Source: an uncultured Clostridia bacterium (GTDB lineage: Bacteria; Bacillota; Clostridia; Oscillospirales; UBA644). Taken from it: a stretch of DNA of 34,405 nt. Made by a program: the position numbers and the translations under genes. The DNA lies in NCBI GenBank assembly GCA_944386295.1, contig CALXAO010000096.1, forward strand, positions 1-34,405, read 5' to 3'. Of this stretch, positions 1,366-20,536 are shown piece by piece (positions within the stretch are counted from its first letter, which is position 1; every line of letters begins with the position of its first letter). The notes beneath the pieces were generated by a model. It did not search any database and had not been told where the DNA came from. It was given only the letters and a program-made list of their open reading frames with translations.

Positions 1366-2211
1366 ATGATTCGAATCGGGCTAATTGATTATTTTTTGGA
1401 TCAGTATCATGCAGTGCATTATCCCGGTTGGCTTAGGGATGCTTCTTGTGGGGAAGTTTGTGTGACTGGTGCATGGGCTTTGATTGATAAGCCGGGTGGA
1501 AAATCCAATGCAGAATGCTGTGCAAATTTGGGAATAATGCTTTATTCCTCTCCTGAAGAGGTAATTGCGGATTCCGATGGGATCATTGTAATGGCTCCCG
1601 ATCATCCGGAAATGCATGAGAGACTTTGCCAGATGCCGTTGTCCAGCGGAAAACCTACTTATGTGGATAAAACCTTTGCTCCTGACCGTGCATCAGCGCT
1701 ACGGCTTGTCAAATTGGCATTGAAGTCCGGAACGCCTTTTTTCTCTGCATCGGCATTGCGTTTTGCTCCGGAGTATGCTGGAGTGGATACCGAAGGAATT
1801 GTACATTTTAGCAGCCGGGGACCGGGCAGGTTTTACAATTACGGAATTCATCAGTTGGAGCCTATTGTTGCTTTAATGGGAACAGGAATTGCACGGGTGT
1901 TGTATTTTGGTTGTGGCCCGGCAGAAGGTTTTTTGTTTCAATACGGAGATGGCCGTACAGCAACGATTACTCATTTGGGTGGAAATTGTGAGTTCAATGT
2001 CGCTTTGTGCTATGAGAACGGAAAAGGTGTTGTTCTTCCTCTCGCCGAAGGATATTATCCTCAATTTATTCGGCAACTGGTGGCTTTTTTTCAGGATTTG
2101 GTTCCGAGGGTTAACTGGAAGGAAACCGTAGAAATTATAACTGCCCTGGAAGCCGGAAAGATGGCAATGGCAAGTCTCGGACAGTGGGTACCTTTGTCCC
2201 AGGACGTTTAA
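1366..2211 (+). CDS. Gfo/Idh/MocA-like oxidoreductase, short variant
   Basis: A 281-residue protein, shorter than the 330-400 usual for the family. The N-terminus (IRIGLIDYFLDQYHA) has a beta strand and loop where the normal GxGxxG is missing, so dinucleotide binding may be altered. The EKP motif is replaced by VDKTFAPD near residue 100, keeping the lysine, followed by SASALRFAPEY, a pattern I associate with a subgroup of putative dehydrogenases. In place of DxGxHxxD there is FYNYGIHQLEPI, which keeps GxH but lacks the usual first acidic residue. It lies 5 bp after a canonical family member and directly before an AraC regulator, so it probably acts in the same sugar pathway, perhaps as a partner or as an enzyme with different chemistry. 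Family is likely; activity is uncertain. Confidence 0.75.
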   Translation: MIRIGLIDYFLDQYHAVHYPGWLRDASCGEVCVTGAWALIDKPGGKSNAECCANLGIMLYSSPEEVIADSDGIIVMAPDHPEMHERLCQMPLSSGKPTYVDKTFAPDRASALRLVKLALKSGTPFFSASALRFAPEYAGVDTEGIVHFSSRGPGRFYNYGIHQLEPIVALMGTGIARVLYFGCGPAEGFLFQYGDGRTATITHLGGNCEFNVALCYENGKGVVLPLAEGYYPQFIRQLVAFFQDLVPRVNWKETVEIITALEAGKMAMASLGQWVPLSQDV

Positions 2212-2221
2212 GGTGCTTCGG

Positions 2222-3124
2222 ATGAATCGGGAAATTTTTTCTTCCTCTGTACAAGGAGGGAAACGCTTTCACATTGATCACGGTTTTTGGGATTCTCCTT
2301 TACCTTGCGGTATGGTAGAGCTTTATCAGCTAGGGGAATTGTGTTGTGAACACGGATTTCAAATTGAGGCTCATGAGCAGAAGGTTTACGAGATCATTTA
2401 TGTGATTTCCGGTAGTGGGAGTTCCACGATTGCGGGAGAAACGGTGTTTCTAAAGGAAGGCAGTCTCTTGGTTAATTCTGTGGGACATGTGCATTCCATG
2501 GCAGCGGGAGAAACCGATCTGTTCCGTTATGCCTATTTGGGGTTTCTATTTCGTTCTTCAGCCGAGGAGCCGGAATTGCAAGCGCTTCAACGGTGTTATA
2601 AGTATCAGCCTTATTATTTGATTCCAGATCAAAACAATATTATTTATCCTTTTCTGCAAAGTATCGGAGAGTTATATTCATCTGATCTGCTAAATTTGCA
2701 AATGGTAAAAAATTATTGTGAGCAATTGGTGATTCTTACCGCTCGGAATTTACTGCGGCAGAACGGGGAAACGTCGGAAAAATTACTGGGGCGAATGTCT
2801 TCGACGCATGGGGTATATGACGTAATTCGCTATGTAGAAGAAAACGTTTGTACCCTTCGGCAGGTAGTGGAGGTTGCCTCCGCTTTGGGATATGGGTATT
2901 CGTATCTTTCGCATTTCTTTAAAGAGCGAACTGGGATATCTTTGCAAAAATACATTAGTTATAAAAAAGCTGAGTATGCGGCCCGGTTGCTGAAGTGCAG
3001 CGGACTGAGCGTCACAGAAATTTCCGTGCGATTGTGCTACGAAAGTCCGCAGGCCTTTTCAAAAGCTTTTAAACGGGTCATGGGAATTTCTCCGTCTTTA
3101 TATGTAGGAAAAGGTTCTCAATAA
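2222..3124 (+). CDS. AraC family transcriptional regulator
   Basis: A DNA-binding regulator of about 300 residues. The N-terminal half is a cupin-like ligand domain (HEQKVYEIIYVISGSG, then a KEGSLLVN strand). The C-terminal ~100 residues hold the two AraC helix-turn-helix units (SYLSHFFKERTGIS and the later YESPQAFSKAFKRVMGISP). I choose the ATG at 2222 because AAGGTG (2210-2215) sits 6 nt upstream and overlaps the stop of the preceding gene; a GTG at 2213 in the same frame would lie inside that ribosome binding site. It ends the operon with the two oxidoreductases and likely senses their sugar substrate and activates the locus. The family call is secure; the ligand is unknown. Confidence 0.88.
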   Translation: MNREIFSSSVQGGKRFHIDHGFWDSPLPCGMVELYQLGELCCEHGFQIEAHEQKVYEIIYVISGSGSSTIAGETVFLKEGSLLVNSVGHVHSMAAGETDLFRYAYLGFLFRSSAEEPELQALQRCYKYQPYYLIPDQNNIIYPFLQSIGELYSSDLLNLQMVKNYCEQLVILTARNLLRQNGETSEKLLGRMSSTHGVYDVIRYVEENVCTLRQVVEVASALGYGYSYLSHFFKERTGISLQKYISYKKAEYAARLLKCSGLSVTEISVRLCYESPQAFSKAFKRVMGISPSLYVGKGSQ

Positions 3125-3157
3125 AAGAGCGCCGAGACGTTATGTTTCGGCGCTCTT
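3125..3157. terminator. Bidirectional intrinsic terminator
   Basis: A perfect 11-bp stem AAGAGCGCCGA / TCGGCGCTCTT with a loop of about 11 nt, between two convergent genes. On the minus strand it is followed directly by a T-run from the AraC stop region, so it best serves the minus-strand oxidoreductase; on the plus strand the T-tail is weaker. Confidence 0.75.
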
Positions 3158-3162
3158 GACTG

Positions 3163-4371
3163 TTAATGTTTTTCTTCCCATTCTCTGCGGCGGGCATCGT
3201 AAATTTCATCGGGAATCTGAATATCTCCTTTAGAATAGGAGGGAATTTCTCCGGTTTCCACGCAGCGAGTGTCATTTCTGTATTTTTCTCGATCTTCTTT
3301 GTTTCGCAGATTCGGAATGTTTACCGTTATGCCTCCTTCCAGCACTGAAAAATAGGCGAACATTCCGGGCAAATACATGTCCATTGCCTCATAAACGTCA
3401 ATAATGTCTGCCTTGGGATTTCCCTGGAGAGCTTCCATGCAGTTCCACATGGCGAGATAGTCTGACCCTCCGTGTCCGGATTTTTCCGCCTCTGGCACCG
3501 GGCTCCCCGGCAGATAAGTTAGCCCCTCGGTTTCTCCGTCCAAATTTAGATAGATCCGCCGGTTACCGTGCGCTCCGGCCGCGTCTTCTCGGGCACTTTC
3601 CATACGGCCTTTGGAGCCGTATATCGTGTACCAGACCGAGTTCCGGGAAATTCCTGTTCCATGTCCACTTTTAATAATGCTGCCGTTTTCCAGGGTCACC
3701 ATTTCAATTCCAAAAGAACCTGACCGGGCACCAATGCGGGCCATGCGCTCGTTGTGTATTCCTTCAAACCCGCAGACCCTAATCGGCCGTAATCCGGTAA
3801 TATGAATTAGCGGGCCCATAGAATGCGTGCAGTAGAAAAAGGCGTGCATGCCGTTTCGCCAGTGATTTTTGTCGCCGTAGGTGATGTCTGTCCAGATGGG
3901 TTCGCAGTTGTGAAAATATTCTCCTTCCCCGTATTCAAACTCACCTAACTTTCCTTCCCGGTAAAGCCGCCGCATTTCCCGGGGCGCGCCCATATAACAG
4001 TAATTTTCCAGATAAAAGTATCGTTTTCCGGTTTGTTCGGTGCATTCTACCAAAGCTACGGCTTCGGCCATGTTTTTACAAGGCAGTACTTCAGAAATGA
4101 CATGCTTTCCTTGTTCCATGGCTTTGATTGCGAAGGGTGCATGTTCGTCTGCATAGTTAGCCAGAACCACTACATCCATATCATGTTTCAAAAAGGAATT
4201 GTAATCGGTGTAATAAGCTACCGAATCTCCCCATTGGGCGCTCTTTTGTTCCAATCCTTTTTCCCATTTATCGCAGATGGCCACCAATTGTGCGTTATCT
4301 GCGCTGCGGGCATAACTCATCATACTGGAGCCTCGGCCCACGCCGATAACCCCTACTTTAATCGGTTCCAT
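3163..4371 (-). CDS. Gfo/Idh/MocA family protein, possibly GH109-like NAD-dependent glycosidase
   Basis: A 402-residue Rossmann-fold protein starting MEPIKVGVIGVGRGSS (dinucleotide-binding GVGRGS). The EKP position reads ISEVLPCKN, lacking the catalytic lysine. The active-site region reads FYCTHSMGPLIHITG, which resembles the THGLGP motif I recall from GH109 alpha-N-acetylgalactosaminidases, enzymes of this fold that cleave glycosides through a transient oxidation with bound NAD. It could therefore be a redox glycosidase or a keto-sugar enzyme rather than a simple dehydrogenase; this is inference. The ATG at 4371 follows AAAGGAG and a strong promoter. It is divergent from an AraC regulator across about 150 bp that carries candidate operators, so that regulator probably controls it. 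Fold is secure, reaction uncertain. Confidence 0.85.
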   Translation of the reverse strand: MEPIKVGVIGVGRGSSMMSYARSADNAQLVAICDKWEKGLEQKSAQWGDSVAYYTDYNSFLKHDMDVVVLANYADEHAPFAIKAMEQGKHVISEVLPCKNMAEAVALVECTEQTGKRYFYLENYCYMGAPREMRRLYREGKLGEFEYGEGEYFHNCEPIWTDITYGDKNHWRNGMHAFFYCTHSMGPLIHITGLRPIRVCGFEGIHNERMARIGARSGSFGIEMVTLENGSIIKSGHGTGISRNSVWYTIYGSKGRMESAREDAAGAHGNRRIYLNLDGETEGLTYLPGSPVPEAEKSGHGGSDYLAMWNCMEALQGNPKADIIDVYEAMDMYLPGMFAYFSVLEGGITVNIPNLRNKEDREKYRNDTRCVETGEIPSYSKGDIQIPDEIYDARRREWEEKH

Positions 4372-6151: not shown

Positions 6152-6180
6152 TTGACAATCCTTTTGACAGATGTTATAAT
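6152..6180 (+). promoter_or_regulatory. Consensus sigma-A promoter of the dockerin/cohesin operon
   Basis: TTGACA (6152-6157), a 17-bp spacer and TATAAT (6175-6180), both perfect, with TGT before the -10. This is the best promoter in the window, so the operon is probably well expressed. The leader is about 110 nt to the ATG at 6297. Confidence 0.9.
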
Positions 6181-6296
6181 GAAATCGGCAAAATAGCCGG
6201 ATTTCTGGCATTTTTCAACACAAACAATCATCTGGAGAGCTGTCGATTAAGGGGGAAACGGCAGATTCGCCAATTTATGTTTTAAGGAGTTTTCCT

Positions 6297-7697
6297 ATGG
6301 ATTTGATTACAAAACAGTGGAAAAAAGTTCTCTCTCTGTTTCTGTGCTGCGTGTTTTTTGTCGGCCTGTGCGGCGGGTTTGCCGCGGATGACGAAACAGT
6401 CGGTGTGGGGAATTTGCCTACCAATGGGGTAGGAGGGGACTATACCGACAATACCTTTATTGCAAAGCGTTTGGATGTGGTCTTTTCTGAATTTCCGGTG
6501 GGGACTTTTTTTTCCTATACTGGCAAACCCTGTACTTGCCATAATAAGTGCAGTTATTGGGGAGGCTGTGACTGCATTTCCATTTATTCTGATCCGGAAA
6601 AAAACGGTAAGGAAATATATTTGTATTCGATACAATGTATGGGCTTTGCCCACTATGTGTTTTACAAGCTGTTTGGTTATATTGATAGTATTAATTACGA
6701 TACGACTGTTTATCACAGCCTTGGATCTTTGCCGGCCGGAAAGGTGACGGCTGCCAGTGCCCGCTCCCTGCTGTCCTCGGCTAAAACTGGGGCAGATATC
6801 CGAGTTCGGGACAAGCACTCTATGATTCTTTTGACTCAGGATCAGGACGGTTTGATGGTGCTTCAGGCCAACTGGGCTGTGCCCTGTATGGTGAATATCA
6901 GCTACTGGACCTGGGAGCAGTTTGCGTCTCGGTACAATGCCTATGGCATTGAATATGTGAACATGCCCAACGAATACCCCTCTTCAGACGGCGAATATAT
7001 TCCGCCGGAACCGAAACCTCCTGCCGCATTTGAGCCGGGCCGGTACCGGGTTACGCCCTCCGTAGGATTGCGCCTCCGGTCGGGTCCGGGGACCGATACC
7101 CAGCAGTTGGCTCTGGTTCCAGAAAATACAGAGTTGGAAATTACCGAAATTCAAAATAACTGGGGCAAAACTATTTACGATGGAAAAGAAGGTTGGGTGT
7201 CGATGGAATACACCGAGTGGCTGGGCCCTCTACCGCTTCCTCCGTTAGATTTGACGGCGCTTCATCTGGAGGTGCCGGCCGAATGTGAAATTTTTTACCG
7301 GGGGCAGGCTCTGGACTTTTCTGTTTTGAAGGTAGTTGGCGAATATTCCGATGATTCTCGCCGGACGTTGACGGCGGAAGAGTATACTTTACAGTATGAT
7401 TTCCCTTCGGCGGGAGATTATACAGTGTCTGTAATTTCTGGCGAAGTGCAAGCCTTTTTTGAAGTTCGGATTCTCCCAGCCGGCGACTTAGATGTTGATG
7501 GGAAAGTCAGTATGGAGGATATGCTTCTGTTTTTGCGGATTTTAGATGGTACTGAGGTTGCTGGTGCGCATTGTCGGATTGGCGGAGACCTAAACCGGGA
7601 TGGGCAGCTGACAGAAGCCGATGCCCAGGTTCTTATGCGGTATCTGGCCGGGCTGGAGACTGAATTAGTCTGCGGACCGGAAGAAAGCGTGCCGTGA
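6297..7697 (+). CDS. Secreted cysteine-peptidase-like protein with SH3, Ig-like and dockerin domains
   Basis: A 466-residue exported protein. Residues 1-29 are a signal peptide ending near GGFAA. A cysteine cluster CTCHNKCSYWGGCDC lies at 79-93. Residues ~105-215 resemble a CHAP/papain-like amidase or peptidase domain: QCMGFAHYVFYKLFG supplies Cys114, KHSMILL His174 and ANW Asn192 as a plausible triad. Residues ~248-310 are a bacterial SH3 domain (GLRLRSGPGTDTQQLALVP). Residues ~314-392 look like a bacterial Ig-like domain. Residues 397-452 are a type I-like dockerin with two calcium loops (DLDVDGKVS, DLNRDGQLT). It is probably a cell-wall or extracellular enzyme held on the surface through its dockerin. 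The next two genes encode cohesin-like proteins. Catalysis is inferred from three residues only. Confidence 0.82.
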   Translation: MDLITKQWKKVLSLFLCCVFFVGLCGGFAADDETVGVGNLPTNGVGGDYTDNTFIAKRLDVVFSEFPVGTFFSYTGKPCTCHNKCSYWGGCDCISIYSDPEKNGKEIYLYSIQCMGFAHYVFYKLFGYIDSINYDTTVYHSLGSLPAGKVTAASARSLLSSAKTGADIRVRDKHSMILLTQDQDGLMVLQANWAVPCMVNISYWTWEQFASRYNAYGIEYVNMPNEYPSSDGEYIPPEPKPPAAFEPGRYRVTPSVGLRLRSGPGTDTQQLALVPENTELEITEIQNNWGKTIYDGKEGWVSMEYTEWLGPLPLPPLDLTALHLEVPAECEIFYRGQALDFSVLKVVGEYSDDSRRTLTAEEYTLQYDFPSAGDYTVSVISGEVQAFFEVRILPAGDLDVDGKVSMEDMLLFLRILDGTEVAGAHCRIGGDLNRDGQLTEADAQVLMRYLAGLETELVCGPEESVP

Positions 7698-8437
7698 TGC
7701 GGAAGGGAATTGTTTTGATTTTGACCTTGGCTTTTTTATTCAGTCTGATCTGTGGCCTTGGTGCTGTCGGAGTGTCTCCGTCCATTCGACTGACAGTGTC
7801 GGAGGTGTCGGGAGATCAGATAACAGTACAACTGAGGGCCGAGGGAATGGATTGGGTTGGTTTGTCTGTGCAGTTGTTGTATGATCCTTCTCGGTTGACA
7901 TTACTTTCAGCTGGAGAAGGAACAGGAATTGCTGCGGCTCGGCAGGATGGGTTCAGTTTTCTCTGTCAAAGTGGTGATCCAGCGCAGTCCTCCCAGACCG
8001 GCCGGTGTGCTTTCGTTGCAGCCACTGGGGCCAAGGACTGTGCTATGAGCCGTTACGACTCTGTGGCGGCTGTGTTTGTGTTTCGTCTTACCGATCTTGC
8101 CATCGATGTTATCCCTGTGCAGCTGGCGGTGGCGTCTCTTCTGGACGTGTCGGGGGTTCCGCTGCTGGAATATACAGGATTTACGCCCGACCAGCCCCCG
8201 GTAGTGTACGGAGAGTACTCTTTACCAACCTATGAATTTGGAGATGTGAACGGGGATGGAGAGCTGACGGTTTACGATGCGTTGTTGCTTTTACAGAATC
8301 TAGCCGGTTCTGTTTCCTTGACGCCACGGAATTTGGCGGCGGGCAAGGTTGCGGGCCAGGCTGATCTGACGGTCTATGATGCTTTGTTGATTTTACAGCG
8401 ATTGGCCGGTGCAGTGGATACATTTCCTGCGGCATAA
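7697..8437 (+). CDS. Secreted cohesin-like/dockerin adaptor protein
   Basis: A protein of 246 residues from the ATG at 7697, which overlaps the preceding TGA by one base (an in-frame GTG at 7694 is the alternative). After a signal peptide (residues ~1-25) comes a beta-rich domain (~30-155) with cohesin-like features: IRLTVSEV, MDWVGLSVQLLYDPSRLTLLS, and a late VAAVFVFRL strand. Residues ~182-240 form a dockerin: the first calcium loop DVNGDGELT is canonical, while the second is degenerate (GKVAGQADLT) although its helix VYDALLILQRLAG closely matches the first. Carrying both a cohesin-like and a dockerin module, it could bridge the dockerin enzyme before it and the membrane-anchored cohesin-like protein after it. 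Binding is inferred, not shown. Confidence 0.78.
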   Translation: MRKGIVLILTLAFLFSLICGLGAVGVSPSIRLTVSEVSGDQITVQLRAEGMDWVGLSVQLLYDPSRLTLLSAGEGTGIAAARQDGFSFLCQSGDPAQSSQTGRCAFVAATGAKDCAMSRYDSVAAVFVFRLTDLAIDVIPVQLAVASLLDVSGVPLLEYTGFTPDQPPVVYGEYSLPTYEFGDVNGDGELTVYDALLLLQNLAGSVSLTPRNLAAGKVAGQADLTVYDALLILQRLAGAVDTFPAA

Positions 8438-8459
8438 CAGGAGAGGAGGATCTTTACCT

Positions 8460-9410
8460 GTGACTTTAAAAAAAATATGTTCCACGACATTACTATTAGT
8501 TTTTCTAGTAGCTGTTGTTTCCCTTTTTCTCCTTATCGGCCAGGCTGCGCCCAAAAAACCGATTTACGTGACGGTGTCCGAGGTAAAAAACGATACACTG
8601 ACTGCTGAAATTTTTGCTCCCGGTTTGAATTGGGCGGCATTTGACTTTCGCGTTCTGTTTGATCCTGCTGTATTGGCTGTAGAAGATGGGGGAATCCAGG
8701 TAGGCTATATTTTGGACGAATTGCCTCGGGGACAATCCATTACTTTTGTTCCAGGGCCGATAACGGCGGCTAACAGTACCGGCGTCCTTTCCTGCACTGG
8801 AGTCGCTCCAGTGGGTACAGATATGAGTGCTTATTCCGGTTCGTTGGTTTTGATTCAATTTCGGGTACTGAATGAATCTGTAATGGATACTGTGTTGAAG
8901 CTTGCTGTTCGTTCTTTGATTGACAGCCAGAACAAACCGGTGGCTGATTATACAACCTTTGGTCAGAATGATACTCCTGTAATTTATGATTCTCTTTCGG
9001 TTCAACTGCGGGTTCCAGAACCTCCCACAGACACGTCGACGCAAGAAACCTCTTCTACCGATCATCCCACTGTGTCCACATCTACATCCACATCCACATC
9101 TACCTCTACCCGCACGGAAAATCCAACCGATACAGATATTCCAACGGATACGGATCTTTCCTCTTCTGAAACGGAGACCGACCTGCCTCCGGTAACCGAT
9201 ACGGATACCGATTGGTCACATACGACCAATCTTCAGGATTCGGACATCACGGACGATTCGGAGACCGATACGGTTTCAGGTGTATTTACCCGGGAGGAAC
9301 CTCCGCAAGAGAGGAAATCCTTTGCCTATTGGCCGGAGGTTGTTTCGGTGGGTTTTGCCGTCCTATTTGTAGCAGGCTGTGCTGTCCTGGCTTTCCTGCG
9401 CCGCAGATAA
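8460..9410 (+). CDS. Membrane-anchored cohesin-like surface protein
   Basis: A 316-residue protein from GTG 8460, chosen because AGGAGG (8444-8449) precedes it; the frame is open farther upstream but that part overlaps the previous gene. Residues 1-30 are a signal peptide. Residues ~33-185 are a cohesin-like domain clearly paralogous to that of the preceding gene (shared TVSEV, G-[LM]-[ND]-W, [FY]DP-x-x-L and a matching late strand). Residues ~187-280 are a Thr/Ser/Asp-rich linker with repeated TDTD and ST units, likely spanning the cell wall. Residues ~294-312 are a transmembrane helix followed by a short RRR tail, which gives an outside-facing anchor. It ends the operon and is followed by a strong terminator. 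It may be the surface anchor for the two dockerin proteins. Confidence 0.8.
   Translation: MTLKKICSTTLLLVFLVAVVSLFLLIGQAAPKKPIYVTVSEVKNDTLTAEIFAPGLNWAAFDFRVLFDPAVLAVEDGGIQVGYILDELPRGQSITFVPGPITAANSTGVLSCTGVAPVGTDMSAYSGSLVLIQFRVLNESVMDTVLKLAVRSLIDSQNKPVADYTTFGQNDTPVIYDSLSVQLRVPEPPTDTSTQETSSTDHPTVSTSTSTSTSTSTRTENPTDTDIPTDTDLSSSETETDLPPVTDTDTDWSHTTNLQDSDITDDSETDTVSGVFTREEPPQERKSFAYWPEVVSVGFAVLFVAGCAVLAFLRRR
9075..9110 (+). repeat. Hexanucleotide tandem repeat in the Ser/Thr linker
   Basis: Six in-frame copies of TCYACM (TCCACA, TCTACA, TCCACA, TCCACA, TCTACC, TCTACC) encoding a run of Ser-Thr. Unit length is a multiple of three, so copy-number change would lengthen or shorten the linker without a frameshift. 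Confidence 0.75.
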
Positions 9411-9431
9411 ATACAAAATTTGCTGTTGTTC

Positions 9432-9463
9432 GCGCCCCTGCGTTTGTGGGGGCGCTTTTTTTT
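9432..9463 (+). terminator. Intrinsic terminator of the dockerin/cohesin operon
   Basis: Stem GCGCCCC (9432-9438) with GGGGCGC (9449-9455), followed by eight T residues (9456-9463). Confidence 0.92.
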
Positions 9464-18895: not shown

Positions 18896-20536
18896 ATGAA
18901 ACGGTTTTGTTCTTTTCTGCTGGCCCTGACAGCAGTACTGACCCTGCTTCTTCCCCTGTCGGCCGAATCGGAAGAGAGTCTGCGGGACAGACTGCGGGCC
19001 ACCATTCCGGAGACTTTTGCCTTGCAAACGCATGGGGCGGTGGAGCCTTGGCTGGATTACTGGATGGAAACCAATCCCAAGATGCGGGAAAACGAAATGA
19101 TGGAACTGTGCTTTTACAGTTATCTGCGAGCCTTTGATTTTACCCGACAACAGTTTGATGAGGCGATGGCTGCCGACCCGGAATATGCGGCAACAGTGAA
19201 CGGTGACGCCTTGTGGGAGCTGTATTTGTCGCTGTATTCCTATTTAGATGAATATCCCTATTATCCTAGCCCTCCTATTCTGAAGCCCACAGAGGACAGT
19301 GACGTGCGCTTTGAGATGGATCTGGAATACGAATACCGCTATATCCGCTTTACCTCTGCGGCTCGGACGATTGATCTTACAGAGTTGTTTGAGCAGTACT
19401 TATCTACAGAGGAAGCGTTTGTATTTCGGGGTGACAAGGCCTATGCTACCGATGGAACCTTCATTTATGCAGGGGATCATTTTTCCTATGACCGGAGCGA
19501 TTACGATTCTTTTTATTATCTGATGCGAGGTACGGTTCTTGATACATTGCCTGACAGCGCGGAAGGGCTGTTGACCCCGTTGCAGGAACAGCCAGATGAT
19601 ACTTTGGTGCGTTTGCCGGACGAGGAAGGTTATTTATATACTGATTACACAAACAACCGGATTATGCGCTGTAATGCCGATGGAGGAAATGAAACAGTCT
19701 TTTACGAGGGCCGGGACCTGCTCATCGGAACGGGACTTACGGTGGATCGGAATGGAAACATTTCCTTTCGGTGCAGCTATGATTACAGTTATGATACCTC
19801 TTTGGGAACCTGGGTGTCCCGGGTAGGGGTTTGTGTGCTGAATCGGCATGGCGGGGTTCTCAAGCTGATTCCTGGAGCATCGGAGCTGGTGTATTACGAC
19901 GATCCGGAGCTGGTCCGGGGCATGGCGATTGCCGCCGGACATACCTATGAAGAGGGCGATCTGAATGTGCGCAATATTATTAGCCTGACTACCGGACAGA
20001 TTATTGGGGTTATTGACGGCAATCAGAATGTGAACGTGTCATCTTTTGCCTATTCCCACGCAGTGTCTCTTTATGCATCTTGTCTGGCTGAATGTTATAC
20101 CGAATATCTGGGGGAGGGCAAATATTCTCGCCGGGTGGAGGTGTATCAGCTGGAGAATATGGAATATTTGTATACGCTGACGATTTCCAATTCCTCCAAA
20201 GACGGTGTGTTCCGAGTGTTGTCGGTTTCAGAGGATGGAACAAAAATCAAACTGTTTTTTTCCATTCCGGGGGCAGATGGGCGGACGGTGTCCGGGGTGT
20301 TCCCTATTGATCTGAAGCCCCTTTTGGCTGAGGAAGATGCGAACGAACCGCAGGTGCCGGATTATCCTTCTTATTCGGGCAATTATATTGATGGCCCGGT
20401 AGTTAAGGACGGGATTGAGTCCTTTATCAACACTTCTGCTCAGGCGTCTCTGTTTTTGAAAATTGTATGTGGTGCCCTGGTTTTTTTGATTGTAGGCACG
20501 ACGCTGTTTCTAATCAACGAGATTCGTAAAACCTGA
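18896..20536 (+). CDS. Membrane-anchored extracellular protein of unknown function
   Basis: I do not recognise this 546-residue protein. Residues 1-23 are a signal peptide (MKRFCSFLLALTAVLTLLLP, then SAES), and a C-terminal helix (KIVCGALVFLIVGTTLFLI) followed by NEIRKT would anchor it with the bulk outside the cell. The first ~200 residues are Glu/Tyr-rich and probably helical. The middle (~235-400) has strand-turn repeats such as EGYLYTDYTNNRIMRCNADG and LTVDRNGNISFR, reminiscent of NHL or beta-propeller blades. The ATG at 18896 follows AAAGGA by 7 nt. An O-acetyltransferase gene follows after 11 bp, with its ribosome binding site overlapping this stop. Surface sensing or polysaccharide binding are possible roles, without proof. 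Confidence 0.8.
   Translation: MKRFCSFLLALTAVLTLLLPLSAESEESLRDRLRATIPETFALQTHGAVEPWLDYWMETNPKMRENEMMELCFYSYLRAFDFTRQQFDEAMAADPEYAATVNGDALWELYLSLYSYLDEYPYYPSPPILKPTEDSDVRFEMDLEYEYRYIRFTSAARTIDLTELFEQYLSTEEAFVFRGDKAYATDGTFIYAGDHFSYDRSDYDSFYYLMRGTVLDTLPDSAEGLLTPLQEQPDDTLVRLPDEEGYLYTDYTNNRIMRCNADGGNETVFYEGRDLLIGTGLTVDRNGNISFRCSYDYSYDTSLGTWVSRVGVCVLNRHGGVLKLIPGASELVYYDDPELVRGMAIAAGHTYEEGDLNVRNIISLTTGQIIGVIDGNQNVNVSSFAYSHAVSLYASCLAECYTEYLGEGKYSRRVEVYQLENMEYLYTLTISNSSKDGVFRVLSVSEDGTKIKLFFSIPGADGRTVSGVFPIDLKPLLAEEDANEPQVPDYPSYSGNYIDGPVVKDGIESFINTSAQASLFLKIVCGALVFLIVGTTLFLINEIRKT

Follow-up and report, generated by a model that had tools for sequence, protein, structure and literature searches.

A small cohesin-dockerin operon with a candidate papain-like cargo in an uncultured gut bacterium of the class Clostridia

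The three-gene operon

The window analyzed here is contig C96 (34,405 nucleotides) of a 2.39 Mb assembly (93% complete) from an uncultured Clostridia bacterium of the gut. It carries three consecutive genes, A, B and C, all on the plus strand and in a unit spanning positions 6152-9455. Its features are as follows, with window coordinates and, in brackets, the evidence for each.

6152..6180, + strand: promoter, sigma-70 type, TTGACA-17-TATAAT plus extended TG (12/12 matches, 17-nt spacer)
6297..7697, + strand: gene A, predicted secreted papain-like protein with SH3, Ig-like and dockerin domains, 466 aa (ORF list, Pfam)
6426..6986, + strand: putative papain-like (CHAP/NlpC-like) domain of A (alignment of 32 sequences; AlphaFold pLDDT 89.5)
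7065..7214, + strand: SH3_3 domain of A (Pfam E 1e-11, above cut-off)
7293..7466, + strand: Big_3 Ig-like domain of A (Pfam 21.6 bits against a cut-off of 21.2; E 2.6e-4)
7479..7646, + strand: dockerin of A, two intact Ca loops, asymmetric recognition helices (Pfam Dockerin_1 E 8e-7, 29.6 bits)
7694..8437, + strand: gene B, predicted secreted adaptor with cohesin and dockerin, 247 aa (ORF list)
7784..8227, + strand: predicted cohesin domain of B (AlphaFold and Foldseek, best E 1.9e-6)
8240..8404, + strand: dockerin of B, symmetric repeats, second Ca loop degenerate (PF00404 23.6 bits; symmetry)
8460..9410, + strand: gene C, predicted membrane-anchored cohesin, 316 aa (ORF list, hydropathy)
8559..9008, + strand: predicted cohesin domain of C (30% identity to B, E 6.6e-16; PF00963 16.2 bits)
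9030..9314, + strand: Thr/Ser/Asp-rich linker of C (27 T, 16 S and 15 D in 95 residues)
9339..9395, + strand: transmembrane segment of C, followed by an RRR tail, no LPxTG (hydropathy)
9432..9455, + strand: intrinsic terminator, GC-rich, just 3' of C (10-bp stem, T8 tail)

With a perfect promoter match upstream and a strong terminator downstream, A, B and C most likely form a single transcription unit, in agreement with a previous sequence-only reading of this DNA that had placed one consensus promoter ahead of three consecutive genes. The start of gene B (GTG 7694 or ATG 7697) overlaps the stop of gene A, the preferred start of gene C is GTG 8460, preceded by a AGGAGAGGAGG ribosome site, and the N-termini of A, B and C (3/3) are signal-peptide-like by hydropathy. 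A BrkB-family gene lies upstream of the triad in this genome. A plasmid origin of the operon was rejected, since megablast against the plasmid collection gave no match. Elsewhere in the window, a 546-aa ORF (18896-20533) had no Pfam match.

Gene A and its putative papain-like domain

The SH3, Ig-like and dockerin domains that the sequence-only reading had recognized in A were all recovered above the Pfam cut-offs, as SH3_3, Big_3 and Dockerin_1. The N-terminal domain had no sequence match in Pfam, NCBIfam or PDB, leaving no named family to which it could be assigned by sequence, and no CHAP or NlpC family profile matched among the 32 members of the A-domain family. A phage relative was also sought and rejected, with one weak match only (23.5%, E 0.01). 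Across the 32 aligned relatives, with identity down to 25%, Gln113-Cys114, His174 and Asn192 are invariant, in the spacing Cys-(60)-His-(18)-Asn; this order and spacing we take to be that of CHAP domains. A CxCHxxC..CxC segment (window 6531-6575) is nearly invariant among the same relatives and is possibly a metal site or a disulfide knot.

Foldseek comparison of the A model with PDB gave the CHAP and NlpC/P60 enzymes Ly7917, MepS, PcsB and PlyC as the nearest structures, and the nearest in the viral structure library were phage endolysins and CHAP proteins; these matches are not significant alone, with E values of 0.02-0.1 (best 0.017-0.025) and none below 0.001 in PDB or the viral library. 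The peptidase-like cargo envisaged earlier would be consistent with both the invariant Cys-His-Asn residues and this fold class, and we read the N-terminal domain, from alignment and model together, as a putative new papain-like family without a name in Pfam or NCBIfam, found in 49 of the 394 genomes sampled from the order. Because the structure matches are weak, we infer peptidase activity from the residues and fold class only, and the substrate would presumably be a wall polymer or a peptide. Like the CHAP and NlpC-P60 wall hydrolases (phage endolysins, PcsB, MepS), A combines the Cys-His-Asn order with a neighboring SH3 domain and finds its best matches in their fold class, whereas its lack of a sequence match in the three databases and its extra cysteine-rich segment set it apart from them.

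The SH3_3 domain of A points to the cell wall, as does a dockerin protein with an Amidase_3 domain from the related genome G361. That protein (L179 1483-2256) is an N-acetylmuramoyl-L-alanine amidase ending in a C-terminal dockerin; here a cell-wall hydrolase is the dockerin cargo.

We consider it quite improbable that the A domain lacks catalytic activity or serves adhesion alone, with the complex acting as an adhesin or spacer at the surface. Such a role would be consistent with the non-significant structure match to known hydrolases, with the adhesive-looking GLUG, LRR and Ig-repeat proteins among the dockerin cargo in the family, and with the crystallized NlpC/P60-dockerin module of Ruminococcus flavefaciens, in which no protease activity was detected (PMC3573020), but it is at odds with the invariance of Gln-Cys, His and Asn over 32 sequences that have diverged to 25% identity.

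Adaptor and anchored cohesin

Foldseek comparison of B, as modeled by AlphaFold (pLDDT 87.5), with PDB gave 49 cohesin chains among the best 50 matches, of types I and II and including those of R. flavefaciens and C. perfringens, the remaining one being a dockerin. A carbohydrate-binding or other fold for the beta domain of B was rejected on the basis of these matches. The dockerin of B reached 20.7 bits against a cut-off of 22.9 when the whole protein was scanned, and 23.6 bits, above the cut-off, in the genome scan; its second calcium loop, KVAGQADLTVYDA, has lost the acidic ligands, likewise in 4/5 orthologues, and the accompanying helix is nearly identical to that of repeat 1. The viral contigs contained no relatives of B.

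Sequence profiles gave a mixed picture for the beta domains. In the hmmscan against Pfam neither that of B nor that of C had a match, and a PF00963 search of the genome itself placed C at 16.2 bits (E 0.015), below the cut-off of 24.1, and did not list B, whereas the C orthologue in G006 reached 31.5 bits, above the Pfam cut-off; the B orthologue in G010 scored 22.7 bits against the same cut-off. The profile comparison suggested in the sequence-only reading gave scores below the cut-off for C itself and above it for its G006 orthologue. The domain of C is assigned as a cohesin because it is homologous to that of B and because of this orthologue. The earlier cohesin-like assignment, made by pattern, would thereby stand for both proteins, for B through its predicted structure and for C through homology, as would the portrayal of B as a cohesin-like domain plus a dockerin and of C as a cohesin-like domain on a Ser/Thr linker with a C-terminal membrane anchor, the linker and anchor being supported by residue composition and hydropathy.

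Having exactly one cohesin and one dockerin, B corresponds to the definition of a monovalent adaptor scaffoldin, and C, with its cohesin and C-terminal membrane anchor, fits the class of nonSLH (TM-anchored) anchoring scaffoldins, both of which are named classes (PMC11557425). C diverges fast, with 24-31% identity across the orthologue alignment, which could indicate relaxed constraint.

Cohesins and dockerins elsewhere in the genome

Three cohesins were detectable in the genome, each of them single: those of B and C and that of a TM-anchored protein on contig C81. Five dockerin proteins were detected, namely A, B, a metallophosphatase, a GLUG-repeat protein and a DUF6528 protein, and 0/5 matched a glycoside hydrolase family. 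No GH5 or GH9 was found anywhere in the genome, no cohesin array or primary scaffoldin with several cohesins was found, and the 20 larger neighboring ORFs scanned had no GH domain. With single cohesins, no array, no dockerin-borne GH match and no GH5 or GH9, the system is by these tests not a cellulosome, GH absence being judged by dockerin-protein content plus GH5 and GH9 only, in a genome that is 93% complete; some parts of the system may lie in the missing sequence or be too divergent to detect. The earlier statement that no glycoside hydrolase or large scaffoldin lies nearby agrees with the 20 ORFs and the three single cohesins, but the operon is not the whole system, given the C81 cohesin and the three additional dockerin proteins.

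The C81 cohesin protein (L044 4741-5571) has a Ser/Thr/Asp linker and a transmembrane anchor and lies just downstream of a lipoprotein resembling PpiC/SurA-type foldases. Two further 'cohesin' matches in this genome, on C104 and C50, were rejected, since they cover signal peptides and unrelated sequence. On contig C100 (G000:C100, L042), two neighboring paralogous metallophosphatases (3-1745 and 1758-3512, both on the minus strand) differ at their ends, one closing with a dockerin and the other with its own transmembrane anchor, which suggests two alternative modes of attachment for one enzyme; the GLUG-repeat dockerin protein adjoins this pair.

Conservation of the triad and probable dockerin specificities

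Four MAGs of a sister genus, each recovered from the cecum or rectum of water deer, keep the triad, with orthologue identities of 42-46% for A and 34-38% for B, and the layout of enzyme, adaptor and anchor recognized in the original reading is thus conserved in four other genomes. The gene order is fixed, B lying between A and C in 5/5 triads, and a BrkB-family homologue sits beside the triad in three of the four sister-genus MAGs. Full-length relatives of B were confined, in an order-wide sample, to the genome studied here and the four triad MAGs. The family of A extends further: a dairy cattle rectum MAG (G008) has A at a contig end, and in another family of the order 10/10 A homologues examined end in a dockerin.

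The genomes of that other family with an A homologue have 50-89 dockerins where counted, including a GH-like protein. This abundance, together with the dockerin-bearing peptidases of the Limousia mucinolysome (PMC12997984), would be consistent with an operon left over from, or auxiliary to, a larger dockerin system of the cellulosome or mucinolysome kind that degrades polysaccharides or mucin. We regard this reading as unlikely in view of the five detected dockerins of the present genome, none on a GH-family protein, and of its lack of GH5, GH9 and a cohesin array in the searches above. In G164, G262 and G361 (family f19), the 50-89 dockerins occur in genomes of 1.7-1.9 Mb; the dockerin proteins scanned in this family were LRR, amidase, GH-like and unknown proteins.

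Internal symmetry is a mark of type I dockerins with a dual binding mode. In a comparison of five proteins each for A and B, based on 15-residue segments chosen and aligned by hand, the B dockerin repeats had a mean identity of 0.72 within proteins versus 0.51 between proteins, a value reached only by the true pairing out of 120, whereas those of A had 0.27 within versus 0.24 between proteins, with 38/120 pairings reaching it. The symmetry of B is kept despite the degenerate second calcium loop in 4/5 orthologues. As the repeats are symmetric in B and not in A, the two dockerins probably recognize different cohesins and would represent two specificities. Furthermore, a dockerin helix signature is common to B, the GLUG protein of the same genome and repeat 1 of the C62 protein, and is missing from A. 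Judging from these sequence features, the simplest wiring would have the A dockerin bind the B cohesin, and the B and GLUG dockerins bind the anchored cohesins.

Alternatively, A might dock directly on the anchored cohesins of C and C81, with B as an extender or competitor that recruits other dockerin proteins, an arrangement that appears somewhat unlikely to us. In genome G236, from another family, the A homologue is directly followed by a TM-anchored protein in which Pfam recognizes a cohesin; in the sheep rumen MAG RGIG7067 (L056) it adjoins an anchored protein whose N-terminus is cohesin-like by eye only, with no Pfam call. Neither stretch, as far as read, has a separate adaptor. The helix signature common to B, the GLUG protein and the C62 first repeat, but not A, would also accord with direct docking. 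However, the fixed position of B between A and C in all five triads argues against it, and the difference in symmetry between the A and B dockerins would suit a type-switching adaptor. The RGIG7067 cluster (L056 2704-7038) consists of the membrane-anchored Big_2 protein, a dockerin-bearing M14 carboxypeptidase and, following these two, the dockerin-bearing A homologue, and shows dockerin cargo of the peptidase type in another gene arrangement.

Proposed surface complex and comparison with known systems

We consider it reasonably probable that the operon encodes a small surface-docking complex with C as anchor, B as adaptor and the papain-like A as main cargo. In outline the set resembles a cellulosome pared down to its docking components, with an apparently peptidase-like enzyme in place of cellulases. 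C would sit in the membrane and present its cohesin outside on the long linker. B would act as a monovalent adaptor, its dockerin docking on an anchored cohesin (that of C or of the C81 protein) and its cohesin taking up a dockerin of another specificity. The dockerin of A, a putative secreted CHAP/NlpC-like hydrolase, would engage B or else bind an anchored cohesin without an intermediary, and the SH3 domain of A would direct the enzyme to peptidoglycan or to a different wall polymer that carries peptides. The binding order A-B-C is our inference; the same cohesins might also serve the metallophosphatase, GLUG-repeat and DUF6528 dockerin proteins, and because these exist in the genome, A need not be the main cargo. 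More tentatively, and with less than even confidence, the set might be a self-contained cohesin-dockerin machine for cell-wall or peptide hydrolysis at the cell's own surface, built on an undescribed papain-like family that occurs with dockerins across the order. If so, enzymes would be displayed at the surface by the cohesin-dockerin principle independently of polysaccharide digestion.

Cohesins and dockerins outside cellulosomes have been described before, but what they are used for is poorly understood. The three-protein set described here is small enough for full purification and reconstitution; its gene order is conserved, its dockerins appear to be of two specificities, and its cargo family is unnamed. 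It would allow one to ask directly what cohesin-dockerin display does outside fiber digestion. Each part has a precedent, in adaptors, TM-anchored cohesins and dockerin-bearing peptidases, whereas we found no description in the open-licence literature of a closed enzyme, adaptor and anchor operon without polysaccharide-degrading enzymes, nor of the papain-like family of A.

B shares with cellulosomal adaptor scaffoldins the combination of one cohesin and one dockerin, and the C-terminal TM helix that follows the cohesin of C is listed as an anchoring motif (PMC11557425). The operon differs from these systems in having no primary multi-cohesin scaffoldin, CBM or dockerin-bearing cellulase, and in that a single operon encodes adaptor, anchor and a peptidase-like cargo. 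The minimal cellulosome of Clostridium saccharoperbutylacetonicum (PMC7157769) likewise has very few cohesins and dockerins, but includes eight dockerin-bearing GHs and a CBM3 scaffoldin, its cargo being cellulolytic.

Dockerin-bearing peptidases are many in R. flavefaciens (PMC2930009) and number six in the Limousia mucinolysome (PMC12997984). Limousia, also a member of the gut Clostridia, has a surface-anchored cohesin as well, but differs in its five scaffoldins, two of them with cohesin arrays, its many mucin GHs and its LPxTG anchor. The R. flavefaciens NlpC/P60-dockerin protein RflaF_05439, which binds the surface-anchored ScaE cohesin and for which no activity was found, resembles A in its papain-like Cys-His domain and C-terminal dockerin, and its retention on the cell surface via an anchored cohesin is similar to the display proposed for A (PMC3573020). 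It was absent from the best 50 Foldseek matches of A, and is unlike A in belonging to a large cellulosome and in having tandem NlpC/P60 domains, an X-dockerin and a sortase-type anchor.
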